DNA from: a bacterium BMS3Abin04
GTDB lineage: Bacteria; Bacteroidota; Ignavibacteria; Ignavibacteriales; Melioribacteraceae
Assembly: GCA_002898175.1 (NCBI GenBank)
Contig: BDSW01000295.1
Location: forward strand, 1-38,961
Direction of reading: 5' to 3'
Length of the DNA: 38,961 bases
Of this stretch, positions 24,382 to 35,430 are shown one piece after another. The translations under genes were made by a program, and so were the position numbers. Each line of letters begins with the position of its first letter. Position 1 is the stretch's first letter. The notes below the pieces were generated by a model. That model worked only from the letters and a program-made list of their open reading frames with translations. It did no database searches and was not told the DNA's origin.

Positions 24382-24951
24382 ATGAAAAAAACTATATTGG
24401 ATTATACCCTTAAGATTCGTTTACCCATCACCTTGTTTGTCGTTGCCCTTGCTTTTGTTGCTACATTCTACATTTCTAGAGCTGAAAGAGATGGTATTGG
24501 TTATGCCCCCGAGCAGCCGATAAAATTTTCTCATGAACTTCATACGGGTAAAATGGATATCGATTGTCAATATTGCCATACTGGTGTTACAAAAGGTAGG
24601 AATGCCCTTGTTCCTTCCGTCAACATTTGTATGAATTGTCATTCAGTGGCTCGTAAAGACAAACCTGAAATAGTTAAACTAAGAGATTATTACAAAAGCG
24701 GTGAAGTGTTACCCTGGAAAAGGGTGCACAAGGTCCCGGAGTATGCTTATTTTAATCATAGTGTACATGTTAATTATGGTATTAGGTGTGAAAGCTGCCA
24801 TGGTGACGTTAGAAAGTTCGAAAGAATTGAACAAGTTAAGAGCTTTACAATGACCGGATGTTTGGATTGCCATAGACATCCTGAAGATCAATTATCTTAT
24901 ATAAAGAATGTTAAAAAGGGTCCGGAGAATTGCTGGACGTGTCATCGTTAA
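24382..24951 (+). CDS. actA: Alternative complex III pentaheme cytochrome c subunit ActA
   Basis: Five CxxCH motifs (CQYCH, CMNCH, CESCH, CLDCH, CWTCH), N-terminal anchor, first gene of the ACIII cluster. Confidence 0.88.
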   Translation: MKKTILDYTLKIRLPITLFVVALAFVATFYISRAERDGIGYAPEQPIKFSHELHTGKMDIDCQYCHTGVTKGRNALVPSVNICMNCHSVARKDKPEIVKLRDYYKSGEVLPWKRVHKVPEYAYFNHSVHVNYGIRCESCHGDVRKFERIEQVKSFTMTGCLDCHRHPEDQLSYIKNVKKGPENCWTCHR

Positions 24952-24961
24952 CGAGGCTAAA

Positions 24962-25135
24962 ATGGGAAAAAAGAAAAAAATAAATAGGAAAAATTTTTTC
25001 GGAAATGTTGGCATGGGATTACTTTTTATTGGACTTATGAAAAATTTACCATTTAAGTTTTTAAATAATATTAAGCGAAATTCTAAAAAAATTAAAGTAA
25101 CAATTCATCCATCGGCAATAAAACGAAATAAGTAA
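24962..25135 (+). CDS. Small basic protein between actA and actB
   Basis: Open frame MGKKKKINRKNFFGNVGMGLLFIGLMKNLPFKFLNNIKRNSKKIKVTIHPSAIKRNK; ATG at 24962 preferred over the track start at 24908, which overlaps actA. Confidence 0.6.
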   Translation: MGKKKKINRKNFFGNVGMGLLFIGLMKNLPFKFLNNIKRNSKKIKVTIHPSAIKRNK

Positions 25136-25143
25136 GGTAGGAA

Positions 25144-28100
25144 ATGCCAGAATCACAAGAAAAATCTAATAAATTTTGGAAGGGCTTAAAGGATTATTAC
25201 GATGATCCGGAAATATTAAAAGCCAAAGTAAATGAATTTAACGATGGTGTGTCCGACGATTTTGATACCGATCAATTATCGGGAATATCCAGACGTAAGT
25301 TTTTAGCTTTATTAACTGCTTCCGCAGCATTTACTGCAACTGCTTGTACAGATTATAGAGATAAAGGCGAGATTGTACCTTACACAAAAAGACCTGAAGA
25401 AATTATTCCCGGTAAGGCTAATTACTATGCATCAACCTGCAAGGGATGTTCTCTGGAGTGCGGAGTTTTAATTAAAACTCGCGAAGGGCGACCCATTAAA
25501 ATAGATGGTAATCCCGAACACCCGATAAATAAAGGTAAAATCTGCTCAGTCGGACAAGCTTCAATATTAAATCTTTATGATCCTGAAAGATTAACAAACC
25601 CAACAAAAAATAAAAATGAAATTTCTTGGAATGTCGTAGATAAAGAAATAATCGATTTGCTAAAAAATGCGGCTTCTCAAAATAAAAAAATTGCAATAGT
25701 TTCTAATAAAATAAATTCACCTACTTCACTTAAAGTTTTAGAAAAGTTCAAAGAAAAATATCCAACTAGTGAGTTTTATTTTTATGAACTTTTCGGTGAT
25801 AATACGAAAAGGAATGCTTGGGAAAAATGTTATGGGACAAGAAATACACCTTCAGTAAACATAGATAAAGCGGACGTTATTGTTTCACTTGATAGTGATT
25901 TTCTAAGTCGGGAAGGTAATTTTATAGAGAATACCAGATTTTATGCCTCACGAAAAGATATTATGAAAAGCAGCAACTTCTCAAAACTTTTTTCCGTCGA
26001 GGGTGGAATGTCTTTAACAGGAATGAATGCTGATGTTAGGATTAAGTTAAAACCTGAATTTCAACATGAATTTGTTCTTTCTATATTAAATGAGATAATT
26101 TTAGTGCATGGAATAAAATCGAAGTATTTAAATTCAAATCTATTAAGTATTCTAAAAAAATATGATTTTACTGATTTTATTAGCAAACAAAACCTAGATA
26201 AAAAGAAAGTTCATTCTTTAGTTGAAAGCTTAATGAAAAACCAAGGTAAATCGATTGTTATAGCCGGTGATAGTCTTTCTGAAAAAACACATATAGCTGT
26301 TAATTTACTTAATGAAGTATTGAATAATTCATCTCTTTATAACCGGCAATCTGTTAATATTGAATATACTCGCGTTTCATCTATGAGTGATCTTAAAACC
26401 CTTGTGGATGAAATGAAAAATGGAACTGTTGATATTCTTATTAACCTTAATGCTAATCCTGTATATCATTTCCCATCGGATTTGAAATTTGCTGATGCTG
26501 TTAAAAAAGTTACAACAATAATTTCTCTTACTGAATCACCTAGCGAAACAACCGCTTTAAGTAATTATGTTTTACCAATCAATCATGCCTTAGAATCTTG
26601 GGGTGATAGTAATGTAAGGAATAATGTTTACACTTTGCAGCAGCCGGTTATTGCTCCGCTATTTAAAACAAGAGAAAAAGAATCGGTGCTTTTAACTTGG
26701 TTGAGTGAAGATGCAAAAAACTTTACGCATGATATTTATCGTAAATTTTTAATGGATAGTTTCAAAAAAGAAATTTATTCCAAAGAGAATACGGATGTAG
26801 CATTTAAACCTTTTTGGTATTCTGCCGTTCATGACGGATTTGTAGAACTAAACGGGAAAAAAGCTTTACCCTTTAATTTTAATATTAACAATACCGGAAA
26901 TCTTGAAGCACCAAAGGTTCAAAATGGAATTACTCTTCATTTACAGCCAAGTTATTTTGTTGGGGACGGACGACATGCAAACAATGGATGGCTGCAGGAA
27001 ATACCACACCCTGTCACAAAAGTAACTTGGGATAATTTTGCTGCCGTCTCCCTAAAGACTGCCGAGAAATTAAGTGTAAGTTTTAACGACGTAATTAGTA
27101 TTGAAGTTAATAATAAAAAATTGGAACTACCTGTGATGATGCAACCCGGTGTGGCAGATAATCTTATTGTTGTAGAACTTGGGTACGGGAGAGAAAACTC
27201 GGGAGAAGTAGCTGATGGTGTTGGATTTAATGCGAATAAATTTTTATATGCTGAGAATTTAATATCACCTTTTATTTTGACAAATATAAATGTTAATAAA
27301 ACAAAATATATATATAAACTGGTTTCTACTCAGGAACATAATTTTTTAACAAATCCATCGATTAGAAATTTTCAAAAAGTAAGAAAAATTATTTTTGAAG
27401 GGACTTTAGACCAATATGAAAAAGATCCGAAATTTCTCTTACCGGAAGAAAAAGTTTTGCATGGAATCACGAGAGAACATAAATACACAGGTCTCAAATG
27501 GGGAATGGCAATTGATTTAAATAAATGTACCAGTTGTAGTATTTGTGTCGCATCTTGTAACGTGGAAAACAATATTCCCGTAGTTGGAAAAGATCAAGTG
27601 GAAGTTGGAAGGGAAATGCAATGGGTGAGGTTAGACCGTTATTATTCGGGAGAACCTGAAAATCCGAAAGTTAGTACTCAGCCCATGTTATGCCAGCAAT
27701 GCGATAATGCACCTTGCGAAAACGTTTGTCCGGTAAATGCTACAAATCATAGCCCCGATGGTCTTAACCAAATGGTTTATAACAGATGTGTGGGTACAAG
27801 ATACTGTGCAAACAACTGTCCTTATAAAGTTAGAAGATTCAATTTCTTTAATTTCCGCGACCATTTTGCCGATGCATATTATGAAAATGATGTTATTGGT
27901 TTAGTTAATAATCCTGAAGTTACCGTTAGATCTCGCGGTGTAATGGAAAAATGTACGTTTTGTATTCAAAGAATAATGGAAGCAAGAGAAAATGCAATAC
28001 GCGAGGGGAGAGAATTAAAAGGAGATGATGTAAAAACTGCATGTCAAGTTGCTTGCCCTGCAGATGCAATGGTTTTTGGTGATATAAATGATCCTGAATC

Positions 28101-28218
28101 TGAAGTCTCAAAATACAGAGAACACGATATAGGATATCTTGTTCTTAAAGAACTATATGTTAAACCCAACATCACTTATATGGCTAAGCTAAGAAATACT
28201 GATACTGAGGAGGTTTAG
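25144..28218 (+). CDS. actB: Alternative complex III ActB (fused molybdopterin-oxidoreductase-like and Fe-S domains)
   Basis: Tat-like signal [21 protein letters not shown]-terminal ferredoxin-type clusters [46 protein letters not shown]. Confidence 0.93.
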
Positions 28219-29585
28219 TGAATACAGTTGATTATACTCAAGAAGTGCCTATTGTTGAAGGAAGACCAACTTTACAAGAGATTAATGAGCTAATAGCTAA
28301 ACCGCTTGATACCAAACCTGATAAGAAGTTTTATATTGCTTTAGCTGTTACTTTAAGTATGCTTACTCTTGGTGTAATAGGACTTGGACTTTCTTTTTAT
28401 TATGGAACCGGAATGTGGGGAAATAATAATCCTGTTGGTTGGGGATTCCCGATTGTTAATTTTGTTTTCTGGGTCGGAATCGGTCACGCCGGAACTCTTA
28501 TTTCAGCCATACTATTTCTTTTCAGACAAAAATGGCGAAACGGTATTGCCCGTTTTGCAGAAGGTATGACCATCTTTGCAGTAATGACTGCCGGCATTTT
28601 CCCTTTGATTCATATAGGTAGACCGTGGTTAGCCGGTTACTTAATACCTTATCCCAACCAGCACTCATTGTGGGTAGATTTTAATTCACCGCTTGTTTGG
28701 GATGTTTTTGCAGTATCAACTTATTTTGCTGTCTCTTTTATTTTTTGGTATGTCGGGTTAATACCGGACTTGGCAACTTTAAGGGATAGAGCGACTTCAA
28801 AAATTAAAAAGACGGTATATTCACTTTTTAGTTTGGGATGGAGGCACTCAAATAGGCACTGGCAGCATTATGAAATGGTTTATTTGGTTCTGGCAGGGTT
28901 TGCAACACCGCTTGTATTGTCTGTTCATACAATTGTAAGTTTTGATTTTGCGGTTGCAATATTACCGGGTTGGCATTCTACCATTTTCCCTCCGTATTTT
29001 GTGGCGGGTGCAGTATTTTCAGGATTTGCGATGGTTCAGAATGTTCTGATTTTCATTAGAAAAATATTTAATTACGAGCACATCATTACTATTAATACTC
29101 TTGATAGAATGAATAAAATTATCATTTTAACGGGCTCGATGGTTGGTTATGCTTATGCTATGGAATTTTTTACTGCATGGTACAGCGGGGTTCAGCCGGA
29201 ACAGTTTACATTTATAAATAGAGCTTTCGGACCTTATGCTTGGGCTTACTGGATAATGGTTTCTTGCAACGTACTTTTCCCTCAATTGTTCTGGTTCAAA
29301 AAAATTAGAAGATCGATTCCTATTATGTTTATAATAGCTGTTTTAGTAAATGTTGGTATGTGGTTTGAAAGATTTGTTATTACCGTTACTTCGCTTTCAC
29401 GCGATTATTTGCCTTCAAGCTGGGCATATTTTAAACCTACATTTGTTGATATGGCAATTCTTATTGGAAGTTTCGGCTTCTTCTTTACGTGGGTTTTGCT
29501 CTTTACTAAGTCTTTACCGGTGGTTTCAATTGCTGAAATTAAATCCGTTATTCATGGTGCACAACCGACTCACGAGGGGCATTAA
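28218..29585 (+). CDS. actC: Alternative complex III ActC (NrfD/PsrC-like membrane subunit)
   Basis: Multi-[60 protein letters not shown]. Confidence 0.93.
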
Positions 29586-29588
29586 AAT

Positions 29589-30728
29589 ATGACAGATAAA
29601 AATTTATATTGTTACGCTGGAATATTTGATACACCAGACCAAATTATTAATGCGGCTAAAAAAGTCCAATCGGATGGTTATACAAAATATGATGTGAATA
29701 CTCCTTATCCAATTCATGGTATGGATAGTGCAATGGATTTGAAGCCGTCTCTTTTACCTTATGTTGCACTTGTAGTAGGATTTTTAGGAGCTGCTTCGGC
29801 GTTGTTTTTTATGTGGTGGACTAACTCGGTTGATTACCCATTGATTATTGGCGGTAAACCATTTTTTGCATTGCCTGCATACATACCTATTACTTTTGAA
29901 ATAACTGTTTTATCTGCTTCAATAATGACAGTTGTTACAATGTTGTTTGTTATTTTTAAATTTCCTAACAATAGTCATCCTTTACATGATACGGATTATT
30001 TGAAACAGGTATCCGTTAATAAATATGGTATTGTGATTTTAGCGGATGATCCGAAGTTTGACGAGTCGAATATAAAACAAGTTTTTGCTTCTCTTGGGGC
30101 ATCACAAGTTTTCCCAATATTTTATCATGAAGAAGTTATAAATTTTAAGCCTAGAATATTTGAACCGAAATTTATTTGGTTCTTAATTATTTTATTTGTT
30201 CTCGTTTCCGGGTCTACATATATCACTCTAAACAAATTGATGTTTTTACCGCCCTACAACTGGATGATGAAGCAGAATAAAGTAATTGTCCAAGAAAAAT
30301 CGGAATTCTTTAAAAACGGGAAAGGGATGCGAATGCCTGTTGAAGGTACTGTGGCTAGGGGCTTTTTACCTTATGAATTTGTTAACAAACCGGAATTAGC
30401 TGCTAAGGATTTACTTAATCCTCTTTTGCCGACTAAGTACAATTTGGAATTGGGAAAAACAAAGTATAATATTTACTGTAGTCCTTGCCATGGTTACCAT
30501 GCAGAAGGGGATAGTCGATTAAGAGGACAGTTCCCAAATCCTCCGAGCTTACATTCTGAAAAAGTTAGGAGTTGGAGTGACGGCAGAATATTTCATGTAA
30601 TTACAGAAGGACAAAACGTAATGCCTTCCTATTCTTCTCAATTAAGTAGAGAGGAAAGATGGGCTGTTATCTTATATGTTAGAGCTCTTCAAAGATCATT
30701 AAATGCTAAGGAGTCCGATTTACCATGA
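29589..30728 (+). CDS. ActD (DUF3341) fused to an ActE-like monoheme cytochrome c
   Basis: DUF3341-like N-terminus (GIFDTPDQIINAAKKVQSDGYTKYDVNTPYPIHGMDSAM) plus C-terminal cytochrome c with CSPCHGYHAEGDSRLRGQFPNPPSLH. Confidence 0.87.
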   Translation: MTDKNLYCYAGIFDTPDQIINAAKKVQSDGYTKYDVNTPYPIHGMDSAMDLKPSLLPYVALVVGFLGAASALFFMWWTNSVDYPLIIGGKPFFALPAYIPITFEITVLSASIMTVVTMLFVIFKFPNNSHPLHDTDYLKQVSVNKYGIVILADDPKFDESNIKQVFASLGASQVFPIFYHEEVINFKPRIFEPKFIWFLIILFVLVSGSTYITLNKLMFLPPYNWMMKQNKVIVQEKSEFFKNGKGMRMPVEGTVARGFLPYEFVNKPELAAKDLLNPLLPTKYNLELGKTKYNIYCSPCHGYHAEGDSRLRGQFPNPPSLHSEKVRSWSDGRIFHVITEGQNVMPSYSSQLSREERWAVILYVRALQRSLNAKESDLP

Positions 30729-31915
30729 GTAATTCCAACTTTACTGTCGAGTATAATAAGAAAGAACTGCCATCAAGCTTAAGTAAGATTGGATTTCTTT
30801 TATTTGGGCTGGGACTTGTTCTTGTAATTTTGGCATTTTATTTTGATAGTGTTAGAAGTGCTTTTAATAGCGTAATCTTTTTAACTTTTGTTACAAGTAT
30901 TGGTTTAGGGTCCTTATTTTGGATAACGGTTGAATATTTGTCCGGAGCTGTTTGGAGTACTCCTTTTAGGAGAGTAGCCGAATTTTTTGGCGCCTTACTT
31001 TTTATTTTGCCTCTTCTCGCTTTACCCGCTTATTTTAATATGCATGAAATTTATCATTGGACTCATACTGCTGTTGTTGAAGGTGATGAATACTTAAAAG
31101 CAAAAAGTTCGTATCTTGATGTTTCATTTTTCGCTATTAGAAATTTAGTTTTCTTTTTAATTTGGATTATATTTTTCTATTTCATCACCCGCAATTCTTT
31201 GAAGCAAGATGAAAATGGAGATCAATCTTATACAAAGAAAAATTTAAGATGGTCGGCTATTTTTATTCCGTTCTTTGCTTTAACTATTAGTTTCTTTTCT
31301 ATTGATTGGCTTATGAGTTTAGAACCGCATTGGTTTTCTACAATCTTCGGTATTTATTATTTTGCAGGTACCGTTTTGGCTGCTTTAGCAGCAATAACTT
31401 ATACTATTATTAAACTTAATGAACGGGGATATTTTGTTAAGGGATTGAATCAAGATCATTATTACAGTTTTGGAGCATTGCTTTTTGGGTTCATTAACTT
31501 TTGGGCATATATTGCGTTTAGTCAATATTTACTAATTTGGTACGGAAATTTACCTGAGGAGACATTTTGGTTCCTAGAAAAGTGGGAAGGTAATTGGATT
31601 ATCTATTCGGTTTTATTGATTGTTATCCATTTTGTTGTCCCATATTTTGCGCTTCTTTCTCAACCTTCGAAAATGAATCCAAAGCGGCTTAAATTTATGT
31701 CTTTGTGGATACTTGCTGCTCATTATTTTGATTTACTCTGGATTGTTATGCCTACTTATGAAGAAGGATCATACGTCCCAGGCTGGGTAGAACTATCATT
31801 CCCAATCCTGGCAGTTGGACTAATTATTCTTATATTCAATTGGAGAGCAAAAAATAAAAACCTTGTTCCTATCGGTGATCCAAAACTTAAAAGAGGAATT
31901 AATTTTAGACTTTAA
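30725..31915 (+). CDS. actF: Alternative complex III ActF (NrfD-like membrane subunit)
   Basis: Multi-TM; WITVEYLSGAVWSTPFRRVAEFFGALL, SIDWLMSLEPHWFSTIFGIYYFAG. Confidence 0.92.
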   Translation: MSNSNFTVEYNKKELPSSLSKIGFLLFGLGLVLVILAFYFDSVRSAFNSVIFLTFVTSIGLGSLFWITVEYLSGAVWSTPFRRVAEFFGALLFILPLLALPAYFNMHEIYHWTHTAVVEGDEYLKAKSSYLDVSFFAIRNLVFFLIWIIFFYFITRNSLKQDENGDQSYTKKNLRWSAIFIPFFALTISFFSIDWLMSLEPHWFSTIFGIYYFAGTVLAALAAITYTIIKLNERGYFVKGLNQDHYYSFGALLFGFINFWAYIAFSQYLLIWYGNLPEETFWFLEKWEGNWIIYSVLLIVIHFVVPYFALLSQPSKMNPKRLKFMSLWILAAHYFDLLWIVMPTYEEGSYVPGWVELSFPILAVGLIILIFNWRAKNKNLVPIGDPKLKRGINFRL

Positions 31916-31928
31916 ATAAAATTAGATT

Positions 31929-32873
31929 ATGAATGATAAAAGAAAAATAGAAGATGAAATTGATTTTAAGGACCTATTAAGAGATCCTATTCGTTTGTAT
32001 GGGTGGTTCTATCTAATAGTTTTTGTGATTATACTCTTAGGCGGTATTTACTATGTTAAGCATTTGGATGTTATAACTATTAATTCAATGCCTCAAGTTA
32101 TTATTCCGGTTGATTCTACAAAAAATATTGAAGTTGAACTAAAAAAAGGTGGAGTAAAACCCGCCATGGATCTGGATTTAGTTAAAAACCCTACTCCCGA
32201 ATTTATTGCGAAAGGTAAAGAATTGTTTGTTAGTACATGTTCTTCATGTCATGGACAAGACGGTAAAGGGAATGGACCTGCAGGAGGTGCGTTAAATCCG
32301 AAACCAAGAAATTTTCATAGTAAAGATGGGTGGGTTAACGGAAGGTCTTTATTTGAAATGTACAAATCAATCAATGATGGTATAAAGGGTACAGGTATGT
32401 CGGCTTATGAATATTTACCTCCTTCCGATAGAATTGCAATTATTCAATATATAAGAACATTTACGGATTTTCCTAAAATTACAGATGAAGAAATTTTAAT
32501 GGAACTTGATTTTACATATAATCTTTCTGCCGGTACCGCTACTCCTAATCAAATCCCGGTGAAGATGGCTCTGGATAACATTGTTGATGAAAGCAAGGAA
32601 ATACTTAAAAAGAGCAGTTCCATTGCAGAATTTATAGAAAATGATCAATCGCCTGAAGCGTCACTTCTAAAAAGTGTTACATCGAATCTTAAGAGATTTA
32701 TGAATGTTTATATAGTAGCTTTATCCAAACAAGATTTTGATAATTTTACTCAAAAATTAATCTATGATCCTATTTCTTTGGGTCTAAAAAGTTCGGCGAT
32801 TAGATTATCTAAAACACAACTTCGATCAATTTATACTTATCTAGGTAAAGTCTATCAAAGAAAAATATCATAG
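31929..32873 (+). CDS. Membrane-anchored monoheme cytochrome c with an extra C-terminal helical region
   Basis: N-terminal TM; CSSCHGQDGKGNGPAGGALNPKPRNFH; Met-ligand candidate GTGMSAYEYLP. Confidence 0.87.
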   Translation: MNDKRKIEDEIDFKDLLRDPIRLYGWFYLIVFVIILLGGIYYVKHLDVITINSMPQVIIPVDSTKNIEVELKKGGVKPAMDLDLVKNPTPEFIAKGKELFVSTCSSCHGQDGKGNGPAGGALNPKPRNFHSKDGWVNGRSLFEMYKSINDGIKGTGMSAYEYLPPSDRIAIIQYIRTFTDFPKITDEEILMELDFTYNLSAGTATPNQIPVKMALDNIVDESKEILKKSSSIAEFIENDQSPEASLLKSVTSNLKRFMNVYIVALSKQDFDNFTQKLIYDPISLGLKSSAIRLSKTQLRSIYTYLGKVYQRKIS

Positions 32874-33098
32874 ATGAAGTCTTTTTCATTCAAAATAGAA
32901 AAAGCAGTATTATCTCTTGTATTTGTTTTCGTATTCCATAGTGAATACAATGTAGAAACTACCGATAAGATAGGAGTTGGAATTGAGGAGCATCAAGATC
33001 AATATCTTTCTTTAAAAAAATTTGAAACAATACCAAACGTAACTCATGAACCTTATGATTTTAGTCAATTAGAAGGAACGGAATATGGAATCAAATGA
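32874..33098 (+). pseudogene. Chimeric remnant: SCO-like N-terminus joined to CoxA-like C-terminus
   Basis: VETTDKIGVGIEEHQDQYLSL resembles SCO1/SenC N-termini; FETIPNVTHEPYDFSQLEGTEYGIK resembles a CoxA tail; 3' end overlaps the coxC start as coxA-coxC often do. Confidence 0.5.
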
Positions 33099-33714
33099 AT
33101 CGTTTGCACATACTGAATCTCACGTTCATCGTGATGGTGAAGGGGTGAAAATTGGAATATGGTTGTTTTTATTTGCTGAATTAGTTTTGTTCGGCGGAAT
33201 GTTTATAGTTTATACGGTTTACAGATTCAAATATCCCGACCAGTTTCATCTTGCTGCTATGGAGATGAATACGACTTTTGGAACGATAAACACTATTATC
33301 CTTTTAACCGGTAGTTTAACAATGGTATTATCGATAGCGGCGATTCAAAGAAAAAACCGTTTTCTTTCAATTTTATTTGTTGCCTCAACAATATTTTTTG
33401 GATTATTATTCCTAGTGAATAAATTTATTGAATGGTCTAATGAAATTGGAAAAGGAATTTATCCTGGTTCGGATGCACTATTGAAAAAAGGGAACGGGGA
33501 GGTCCTCTTTTTTGATCTGTATTTTGCAATGACCGGTTTACACGGTCTCCATGTATTTATAGGAATAATTGTTCTCACTTTTATGTTGGTGTTTTTATTA
33601 AAAAATAAAATTGTATTTGATAATTATATTAAATTGGAAAACTCAGGTCTTTATTGGCATTTAGTTGTTGTGATTTGGATATTTTTATTTCCGCTTTTTT
33701 ATTTAATTCAATGA
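33085..33714 (+). CDS. coxC: Cytochrome c oxidase subunit III
   Basis: GIWLFLFAELVLFGGMF, FDLYFAMTGLHGLHVFIG, LYWHLVVVIWIFLFPLFYL. Confidence 0.93.
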   Translation: MESNESFAHTESHVHRDGEGVKIGIWLFLFAELVLFGGMFIVYTVYRFKYPDQFHLAAMEMNTTFGTINTIILLTGSLTMVLSIAAIQRKNRFLSILFVASTIFFGLLFLVNKFIEWSNEIGKGIYPGSDALLKKGNGEVLFFDLYFAMTGLHGLHVFIGIIVLTFMLVFLLKNKIVFDNYIKLENSGLYWHLVVVIWIFLFPLFYLIQ

Positions 33715-33725
33715 GGCAAAAAAGA

Positions 33726-34007
33726 ATGATTGATGAACACACTAAAAATAATCATATTATAGATTACGGCACTTATATTTTTGTCTGGCTGGGGTTAATT
33801 GCTTTAACTTCTTTGACTGTAACAATATCGGGTATGCGTTTTGGAAATTATACATTATTCTTAGCATTACTAATTGCTGCTATTCAAGCAACATATGTTG
33901 CTGCAAACTTTATGCATATTAAAACAAGTGAACCTATATTTAAAGTATTTGTCGGAGTAGTTGTTTTTACCCTAATTGTAATATTTATTTTAACTTTTAT
34001 ACTTTAG
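33726..34007 (+). CDS. Cytochrome c oxidase subunit IV (prokaryotic type)
   Basis: YIFVWLGLIALTSLTVTISG...AAIQATYVAANFMHIKTSEPIFKVFV; the track start at 33654 lies deep in coxC, so ATG 33726 is preferred. Confidence 0.82.
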   Translation: MIDEHTKNNHIIDYGTYIFVWLGLIALTSLTVTISGMRFGNYTLFLALLIAAIQATYVAANFMHIKTSEPIFKVFVGVVVFTLIVIFILTFIL

Positions 34008-34068
34008 CAGTTGTTATTTTGTTATCAGATGATAAATTATTTTTATTAGAATTTTAAGGAATTTATTA

Positions 34069-35430
34069 ATGGATTTTTTAGATAAAATAGTACTTCCGCA
34101 ATCTGCAAATCATATGGAATTATTACGCGGGTTGTTAACAATTACGTTTATTATTTTAATTCCTTATCTAAGTATTCTTACAGGTAGTACAATTTATTCT
34201 ATTTTATATCTAAAGAAAAAGAAAACCGGGAAAGAGTCATTATATTTTAAATTCGCTAAAGAATTAATAGATATGGTTACATTGAATAAAAGTATGGCTT
34301 TCGGTTTTGGAATAATTCCTTTAATAACTGCTGTTTTTTGTTATGCTCAATTGTTGGATAAAACCGGATCTTATGTGGCTTATCATCTTACGGTATCTTT
34401 GATCTTTCTAATTGCAGCATTATTGTTCCTTTATACCTATAAGTATGCTTTTCATTTAAAAGACATTTTTAGATTTATTTCCAGCGATAAAATTAAAGAA
34501 AGTAATGATGAGTCGATTGAAGATGAGTTTGAAAAATATTCTTCGACTGCAGATAGAACTTTTAATAAATTTGCCGGTTGGGGATTGTTATTCCTTTTAA
34601 TTGCGGATTATAAACTAATTAATGCAATCCAATTGGCGCTCAATCCGCAAAAATGGGCTCCTAATCCATCATTTCTTTCGGTCTGGTTTTCGGTACCGGT
34701 TATTGTTAACTTTATTACTTTGTTAATTGCTTCTCTTGCAGTAACGGCGATAGTAGTTTTATATATTTATTTTAGACCTAATTCCAACTTTAAAGGCAAT
34801 GATGAGTATTTAAATATTGTAAAAAACTTTTCGCTGAAATCGGGTTTGTTATTTACTTTATTTATTCCGATCGATATCTTACTAAATATTGTTGTTGTTC
34901 CTAGCGCAGCTCTCAATGCAAACATATTTTTGTTTTCGCTAATAGCACTGATCCTAATTTTAATTGCATGCAATTTCTTGTATGTTATGATCAAGGAAGG
35001 AAATCTTAAATACGTTCCTTCAACTCTTTTTGTCTTCATATTAATATTTGCATTTTTAATAGTAAAAGATCAATTTGCATTTGAAACAGCATCAAGCAAA
35101 CATTTTGCCGTACTCGAAAATAATTACGAACAGCATTCTAAAAATTTAAAAGAAAAATTAGGAGTAATTTCTGAAAAAGTCAGCGGTAAAGATATTTTTA
35201 ACGGACGATGTATAGCTTGTCATTCTTTTGATCATAAAGTTGTTGGACCACCTTACAATGAAACCCTTCCGCAATTTGAGGGGAAAATGGATGAACTTGT
35301 TGACTTTATATTGAATCCAAGGAAGATTAATAAAGATTATCCTATTATGCCTAATCAAGGACTCAAACCTAACGAAGCCCGGGCAGTGGCTGAATATATT
35401 ATGAGCGTTTACAAGGAAAATAAAAAATAA
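34069..35430 (+). CDS. Multi-TM membrane protein with C-terminal cytochrome c domain
   Basis: About 8-9 hydrophobic segments, then CIACHSFDHKVVGPPYNETLPQFEGK...YPIMPNQGLKPNEARAVAEYI. Confidence 0.75.
   Translation: MDFLDKIVLPQSANHMELLRGLLTITFIILIPYLSILTGSTIYSILYLKKKKTGKESLYFKFAKELIDMVTLNKSMAFGFGIIPLITAVFCYAQLLDKTGSYVAYHLTVSLIFLIAALLFLYTYKYAFHLKDIFRFISSDKIKESNDESIEDEFEKYSSTADRTFNKFAGWGLLFLLIADYKLINAIQLALNPQKWAPNPSFLSVWFSVPVIVNFITLLIASLAVTAIVVLYIYFRPNSNFKGNDEYLNIVKNFSLKSGLLFTLFIPIDILLNIVVVPSAALNANIFLFSLIALILILIACNFLYVMIKEGNLKYVPSTLFVFILIFAFLIVKDQFAFETASSKHFAVLENNYEQHSKNLKEKLGVISEKVSGKDIFNGRCIACHSFDHKVVGPPYNETLPQFEGKMDELVDFILNPRKINKDYPIMPNQGLKPNEARAVAEYIMSVYKENKK

Follow-up and report, generated by a model that had tools for sequence, protein, structure and literature searches.

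The window, by which the whole stretch of 38,961 nucleotides analysed here is meant, is contig C295 of a 3.66 Mb genome that is 92% complete and assembled into 391 contigs. Its forward strand carries an intact set of alternative complex III (ACIII) genes (24382..31915) with 68-93% identity to the genes at the same positions in G002, the closest congener; by homology and order these are actA, encoding a multiheme cytochrome c (24382-24951), actB (25144-28218), actC (28218-29585), actD fused to a cytochrome c (29589-30728), and actF (30725-31915). They are followed on the same strand by a gene for a monoheme membrane cytochrome c (ActE-like; 31929..32873; Pfam Cytochrom_C, E 2.5e-12; 55% identity to G002), which is the last intact gene before a 74-aa ORF with its ATG at 32874 and its TGA ending at 33098. 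Downstream, still on the forward strand, lie two orphan oxidase genes: coxC for subunit III, with an intact frame (33085..33714; Pfam COX3, E 8.9e-14), identified by its PF00510 match together with synteny and 71% identity to G002 at the same position, and coxD for subunit IV (33726..34007; Pfam COX4_pro, E 4.6e-10). After a gap of 61 nt comes a gene for a 453-aa membrane protein with a C-terminal cytochrome c domain (34069..35430; Pfam Cytochrom_C, E 5.3e-6; 64% identity to the gene at the same position after ctaB in G002), which is the conserved last gene of the oxidase cluster. A contig scan with CoxC returned a single remote relative.

With CoxC as the query, the locus was located in 58 related genomes, and the DNA was compared with that of 3 congeners and 12 others. 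The intact locus of the 3 congeners and 12 relatives consists of ACIII, the monoheme cytochrome, SCO (~260 aa), coxA (~548), coxC, coxD, coxB (~205), and ctaB (~294), the gene order at a few of the relatives' loci being read from spacing and tblastn hits. Beyond ctaB, where the DNA reaches that far, stand the ~450-aa membrane cytochrome c, prmC, dtd, and two more genes. In two loci (L089, 6306-7018, and L086, 5747-6454), actF and the gene for the monoheme cytochrome are separated within the ACIII operon by a small gene pair that was judged by eye to be nucleotidyltransferase-like and HEPN-like.

Two deletion junctions in the oxidase cluster

The 74-aa ORF starts directly after the stop of the monoheme cytochrome gene, which is the same place where SCO starts in G002 (with a 2-nt gap), and its 3' end overlaps coxC by 14 nt, an overlap identical to that of coxA and coxC in G001. 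When G002 proteins were searched against the window by tblastn, the two halves of the ORF were recovered separately: CoxA aa 508-546 matched 32973-33089 (67%, E 2e-10), and SCO aa 8-46 matched 32907-33014 (36%, E 0.013), a match that is weak by score alone and was assigned to SCO because it agrees in position, in the start codon, and in the shared GIEEHQ motif. SCO of G002 begins with MKSQK...IEIGIEEHQGSYIPMD and its CoxA ends in NFEEIPNVTHEPYDFSQLEGMEYGTE, and the ORF in the window reads MKSFS...IGVGIEEHQDQYLSL/KKFETIPNVTHEPYDFSQLEGTEYGIK. The SCO remnant (32874..33014) comprises the first ~47 codons, with the signal segment and IGVGIEEHQDQYLSL, and the coxA remnant (33015..33098) comprises the last ~25-26 codons, including ETIPNVTHEPYDFSQLEGTEYG and the segment immediately before the coxC start. 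Nucleotide comparison with sco and coxA of G002 places the first junction at about TTTAAAAAAATTT (33009..33023), between LSL and KKF and inside CTTTAAAAAAA, where microhomology would amount to a few bases at most. The gap is in frame and corresponds to 2221 nt (~2.2 kb) of sco and coxA on G002 coordinates.

Searched as a whole, the 74-aa sequence matched no Pfam family above the cut-off, and among 79 genomes of the family residues 1-74 match as one piece only in the window's own genome; elsewhere in the family the ORF matches the tail of coxA, mostly within intact ~545-aa frames, the rest being cut by contig ends or broken. Having no cysteine and no Pfam match, the ORF shows neither the CxxxC copper site nor the thioredoxin fold of SCO1/SenC, and with only the last ~25 codons of coxA left it is devoid of the PF00115 core and the heme/CuB histidines. 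The parent genes are adjacent and intact in all three congeners (G001-G003), and their outer ends and flanks are kept in the window, which is the picture expected of a deletion-fusion scar. On this comparison, the ORF is evidently the start of the SCO gene fused in frame to the end of coxA by a deletion. The preliminary description had proposed just this fusion, with a junction near LSLKKF and an end in the coxC start region, and all three points are borne out. As the SCO copper site and the CoxA heme/copper ligands are gone, the 74-aa product would have neither oxidase nor assembly activity and is presumably inert.

The same description held a single in-frame deletion responsible for the loss of most of sco, all of coxB, and nearly all of coxA, with coxB standing between sco and coxA. 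One in-frame deletion does account for most of sco and coxA, but coxB lies outside this gap: in every relative with an intact locus it is found downstream of coxD and is followed by ctaB, and the order assumed earlier was mistaken. A second junction is present after coxD (33990..34057, forward strand), where ~1.5 kb, including coxB and the greater part of ctaB, is missing. CtaB aa 266-294 of G002 matches the window here (tblastn, E 0.001), and the last 19 ctaB codons survive at 33998-34057 as an untranslated 3' remnant, out of frame with coxD, that reads YTLAVVILLSDDKLFLLEF and stop vs YVLTVVILLSLDKLILIQF and stop in G002. The end of coxD is altered at this junction from TFIDYSFR to TFIL. The readable ctaB tail after coxD points to a second deletion of about 1.5 kb, independent of the first and out of frame, which removed coxB and most of ctaB at ~33.99 kb.

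Loss of the A-type oxidase from the genome

Within the window's genome no A-type CoxA and no COX2 were found, a search with the exact G002 reference found no CtaB, and no SCO1-SenC protein was found beyond a borderline match inside a 443-aa frame. All three congeners have COX2 and a CtaB, and SCO and A-type CoxA are present in the congeners as well. The pair of subunits I and II that marks an A-type oxidase operon is hence missing from this genome, and the two deletions also took the SCO copper chaperone and the heme O synthase CtaB. Among heme-copper oxidases, the remaining oxygen reductase is one cbb3 with a fused CcoNO and cco neighbours on another contig. As the congeners also carry cbb3, the loss would narrow the choice of oxidases and would not have ended oxygen respiration.

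Heme A synthase (CtaA) was considered as a test of coordinated loss and dropped as uninformative, since none of the six genomes in the comparison has it, the intact ones included (G000, which is the window's own, G001, G002, G003, G006, and G011); five of them have the A-type oxidase with CtaB. The absence of CtaA agrees with the cc(o/b)o3-type oxidase that has been proposed for Melioribacter roseus.

Evolution of coxC and coxD in the window

Saturation of dS between the window and all relatives meant that branch-specific codon models gave no usable omega, and relative-rate and private-change counts were used instead. With G001 as the outgroup, sites unique to the window's genome vs sites unique to G002 numbered 32:11 in coxC (p 0.002) and 19:6 in coxD (p 0.015), compared to 407:352 across a set of 12 neighbouring genes (Fisher p 8e-4); with the more distant outgroup G006 the counts for coxC were 26:18, and the rate difference was weaker and not significant. 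Eight private changes in coxC of the window (D18G, M25I, T31A, L34V, S76G, K92R, G144D, and D195V) and four in coxD, one of them at the junction, fall on columns that are invariant in 15 other genomes, while the congeners each show 0 such changes in coxC and 0-1 in coxC and coxD overall. With the junction residue left out, the odds ratio of private changes in cox vs act genes was 8.9 (Fisher p 1.4e-5). Both coxC and coxD thus appear to evolve under changed constraint in the window lineage.

The excess of ~21 missense changes in the window predicts ~1.3 stop codons (ratio 0.062), and the open coxC frame was dropped as proof of function because so few stops are expected. In ActC (28218-29585), changes in the window vs G002 numbered 24:4 with outgroup G001, 24:3 with G003, and 17:10 with G006, an excess in the window lineage that might follow the loss of a partner surface.

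Orphan coxC-coxD pairs in relatives

The family was searched for ActC and CoxA to obtain genomes with ACIII and without A-type CoxA, and these loci were then read. In G016, G028, G029, G045, and four species of one genus (G020, G058, G059, and G061), the order is ACIII, coxC, coxD, and a gene for a membrane protein or cytochrome, with no room for sco or coxA and also without coxB and ctaB; G045 belongs to another family. This is the same arrangement as in the window, but the orphan coxC of these relatives is only 31-43% identical to that of G002 and no deletion remnants are visible, whereas coxC of the window has 71% identity and both scars can be seen. COX3 was recognised by Pfam above the cut-off in four of the five orphan loci tested, the match in G029 being weak. 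All orphan-coxC genomes inspected keep cbb3 and none has an A-type COX1; besides cbb3 they hold at most PF00115 matches in 680-750-aa frames, which are NO reductase-like by size only. Within the four-species genus, dN/dS was 0.05-0.20 for the orphan coxC and 0.20-0.54 for coxD, values that indicate maintenance of coxC by purifying selection and, less clearly, of coxD. Positions lost throughout the orphans include H15, R16, D17, K113, G144, and D195, and F28, G38, N69, G138, H156, W198, F200, and P203 are retained throughout. A further genome, G007, has lost coxA, coxC, and coxD and kept ACIII.

In G020 (L080), G045 (L091), and G007 (L084), the gene that closes the cluster no longer has its cytochrome c (heme) domain, which is kept in the window and G016. 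The orphan cluster of G045 is directly followed by a P-type ATPase gene (ccoI-like) and ccoNO, so that ACIII and cbb3 are neighbours there.

In the ACIII tree, G029, G028, and the four-species genus form one clade (support 100) that is sister to the window's genus, and the window groups with its intact congeners, so that its loss is independent of the one in that clade. All long-orphaned sequences cluster in the CoxC tree (support 92), perhaps through long-branch attraction, and the AU test did not reject monophyly of all the family's orphan lineages (p 0.17). On these trees, independent losses number at least two and probably three or four.

Short open coxA frames in G096 and G071 were considered as independent truncations and rejected as contig ends, and those in G077 and G070 belong to otherwise complete genes and were not counted. 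In G077, a congener of G007, coxA (L073, 10497-12131) has an internal TAG at codon 467 and the coxC frame is apparently broken near codon 153, which would be either another loss in progress or a poor assembly. In G070 (L074, 8158-9799), a stop and a frame break near the 3' end of coxA may reflect an assembly error or early inactivation.

Discussion

Gene loss in respiratory operons is common. In the window, the catalytic heart of an oxidase was cut out and two non-catalytic subunits were left behind, and relatives keep the same reduced set under selection. Two separate deletions in the ACIII-oxidase operon, accompanied by the loss of the A-type oxidase, are given a probability of about 0.93, as judged from a fragmented, 92%-complete assembly, with a small chance left for a second copy on an unassembled piece.

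The in-frame fusion keeps the frame open up to the 14-nt overlap with coxC and has in this way probably preserved coxC translation and the coxC start region in cis. The intact ACIII presumably passes electrons via c-type cytochromes to cbb3, and CoxC and CoxD may stay bound to ACIII. That the orphan CoxC and CoxD are accessory subunits attached to ACIII is put forward tentatively, because subunit III is the published contact to ACIII and because orphan pairs are maintained elsewhere. On the wider scale, it is conceivable, at somewhat less than even odds, that subunits III and IV outlive an oxidase whose catalytic subunits have been lost repeatedly, and are kept as permanent subunits of ACIII, the window being one such transition with its scars still readable. 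Retention of coxC and coxD without the enzyme core in several relatives hints at a second job. The most fitting view of the window is that of a recent case of a condition that has arisen repeatedly, the survival of subunits III and IV beyond the loss of their oxidase. A search of the accessible literature, in large part outside the subscription journals, found no report of orphan coxC and coxD beside ACIII, nor any description of these two subunits persisting next to it once their oxidase is gone.

Plain decay explains the window's own data no less well than a new role does. The A-type oxidase would have been lost as described, and coxC and coxD would be functionless pseudogenes-to-be whose frames have not yet been hit; this competes with the proposed attachment to ACIII and leaves the scar as it is. 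Private changes at invariant sites, among them D195V and G144D, the loss of the coxD C-terminus at the junction, and an expectation of only ~1.3 nonsense hits for the observed excess all agree with decay, as does the complete loss of coxC and coxD beside a retained ACIII in G007. However, several relatives have retained coxC and coxD in the absence of coxA on the timescale of a genus, at dN/dS values well below 1, so that loss of the catalytic subunits is not always followed by loss of coxC.

It is unlikely that the orphan CoxC and CoxD serve cbb3, as an adaptor between this enzyme and ACIII, instead of ACIII alone. Every orphan-coxC genome inspected keeps cbb3, and ccoI-ccoNO stands directly after the orphan cluster in G045, but cbb3 is located elsewhere in the other orphan genomes and is carried by intact relatives too. 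No COX3-type subunit is known in cbb3 enzymes.

Since the 74-aa ORF retains a start codon, an open frame, and a hydrophobic segment at its N-terminus, the fusion might have created a new small membrane protein with a function of its own; this is very improbable, as the fusion occurs in one genome only, matches no family above the cut-off, contains no cysteine and nothing of the catalytic part of either parent, and has no counterpart at its place in the orphan-coxC relatives. Very improbable, too, is a collapse of the missing 2.2 kb and 1.5 kb by the assembler, a concern of the preliminary description that the fragmentation into 391 contigs would favour, but which is disfavoured since neither junction has a repeat beyond a few bases, the two independent junctions take out exactly the functionally linked genes, none of sco, coxA, coxB, and ctaB occurs on another contig of the assembly, and the changes of coxC and coxD at otherwise invariant positions cannot be produced by an assembly slip.

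If CoxC and CoxD were indeed subunits of ACIII, the subunit list of ACIII would change in a bacterial order, which would fit with subunit III being the docking surface of the known supercomplex. Intact, freshly deleted, long-orphaned, and fully lost loci would then form a natural series for the study of supercomplex disassembly.

In Melioribacter roseus, the cluster for ACIII and a cc(o/b)o3-type A2 oxidase (Mros0045-0040 and Mros0039-0033; PMC3534657, PMC5492636) has the same set as the intact relatives, with SCO, CoxI, CoxIII, CoxIV, CoxII, and a cytochrome c beside ACIII. In comparison, the window is without SCO, CoxI, CoxII, and CtaB, and is left with CoxIII, CoxIV, and the cytochrome gene alone. 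In the ACIII-aa3 supercomplex of Flavobacterium johnsoniae, contact is made via oxidase subunit III (PMC8361435). There, ACIII works with an A-type oxidase, whereas the window retains subunit III and the catalytic oxidase is gone.
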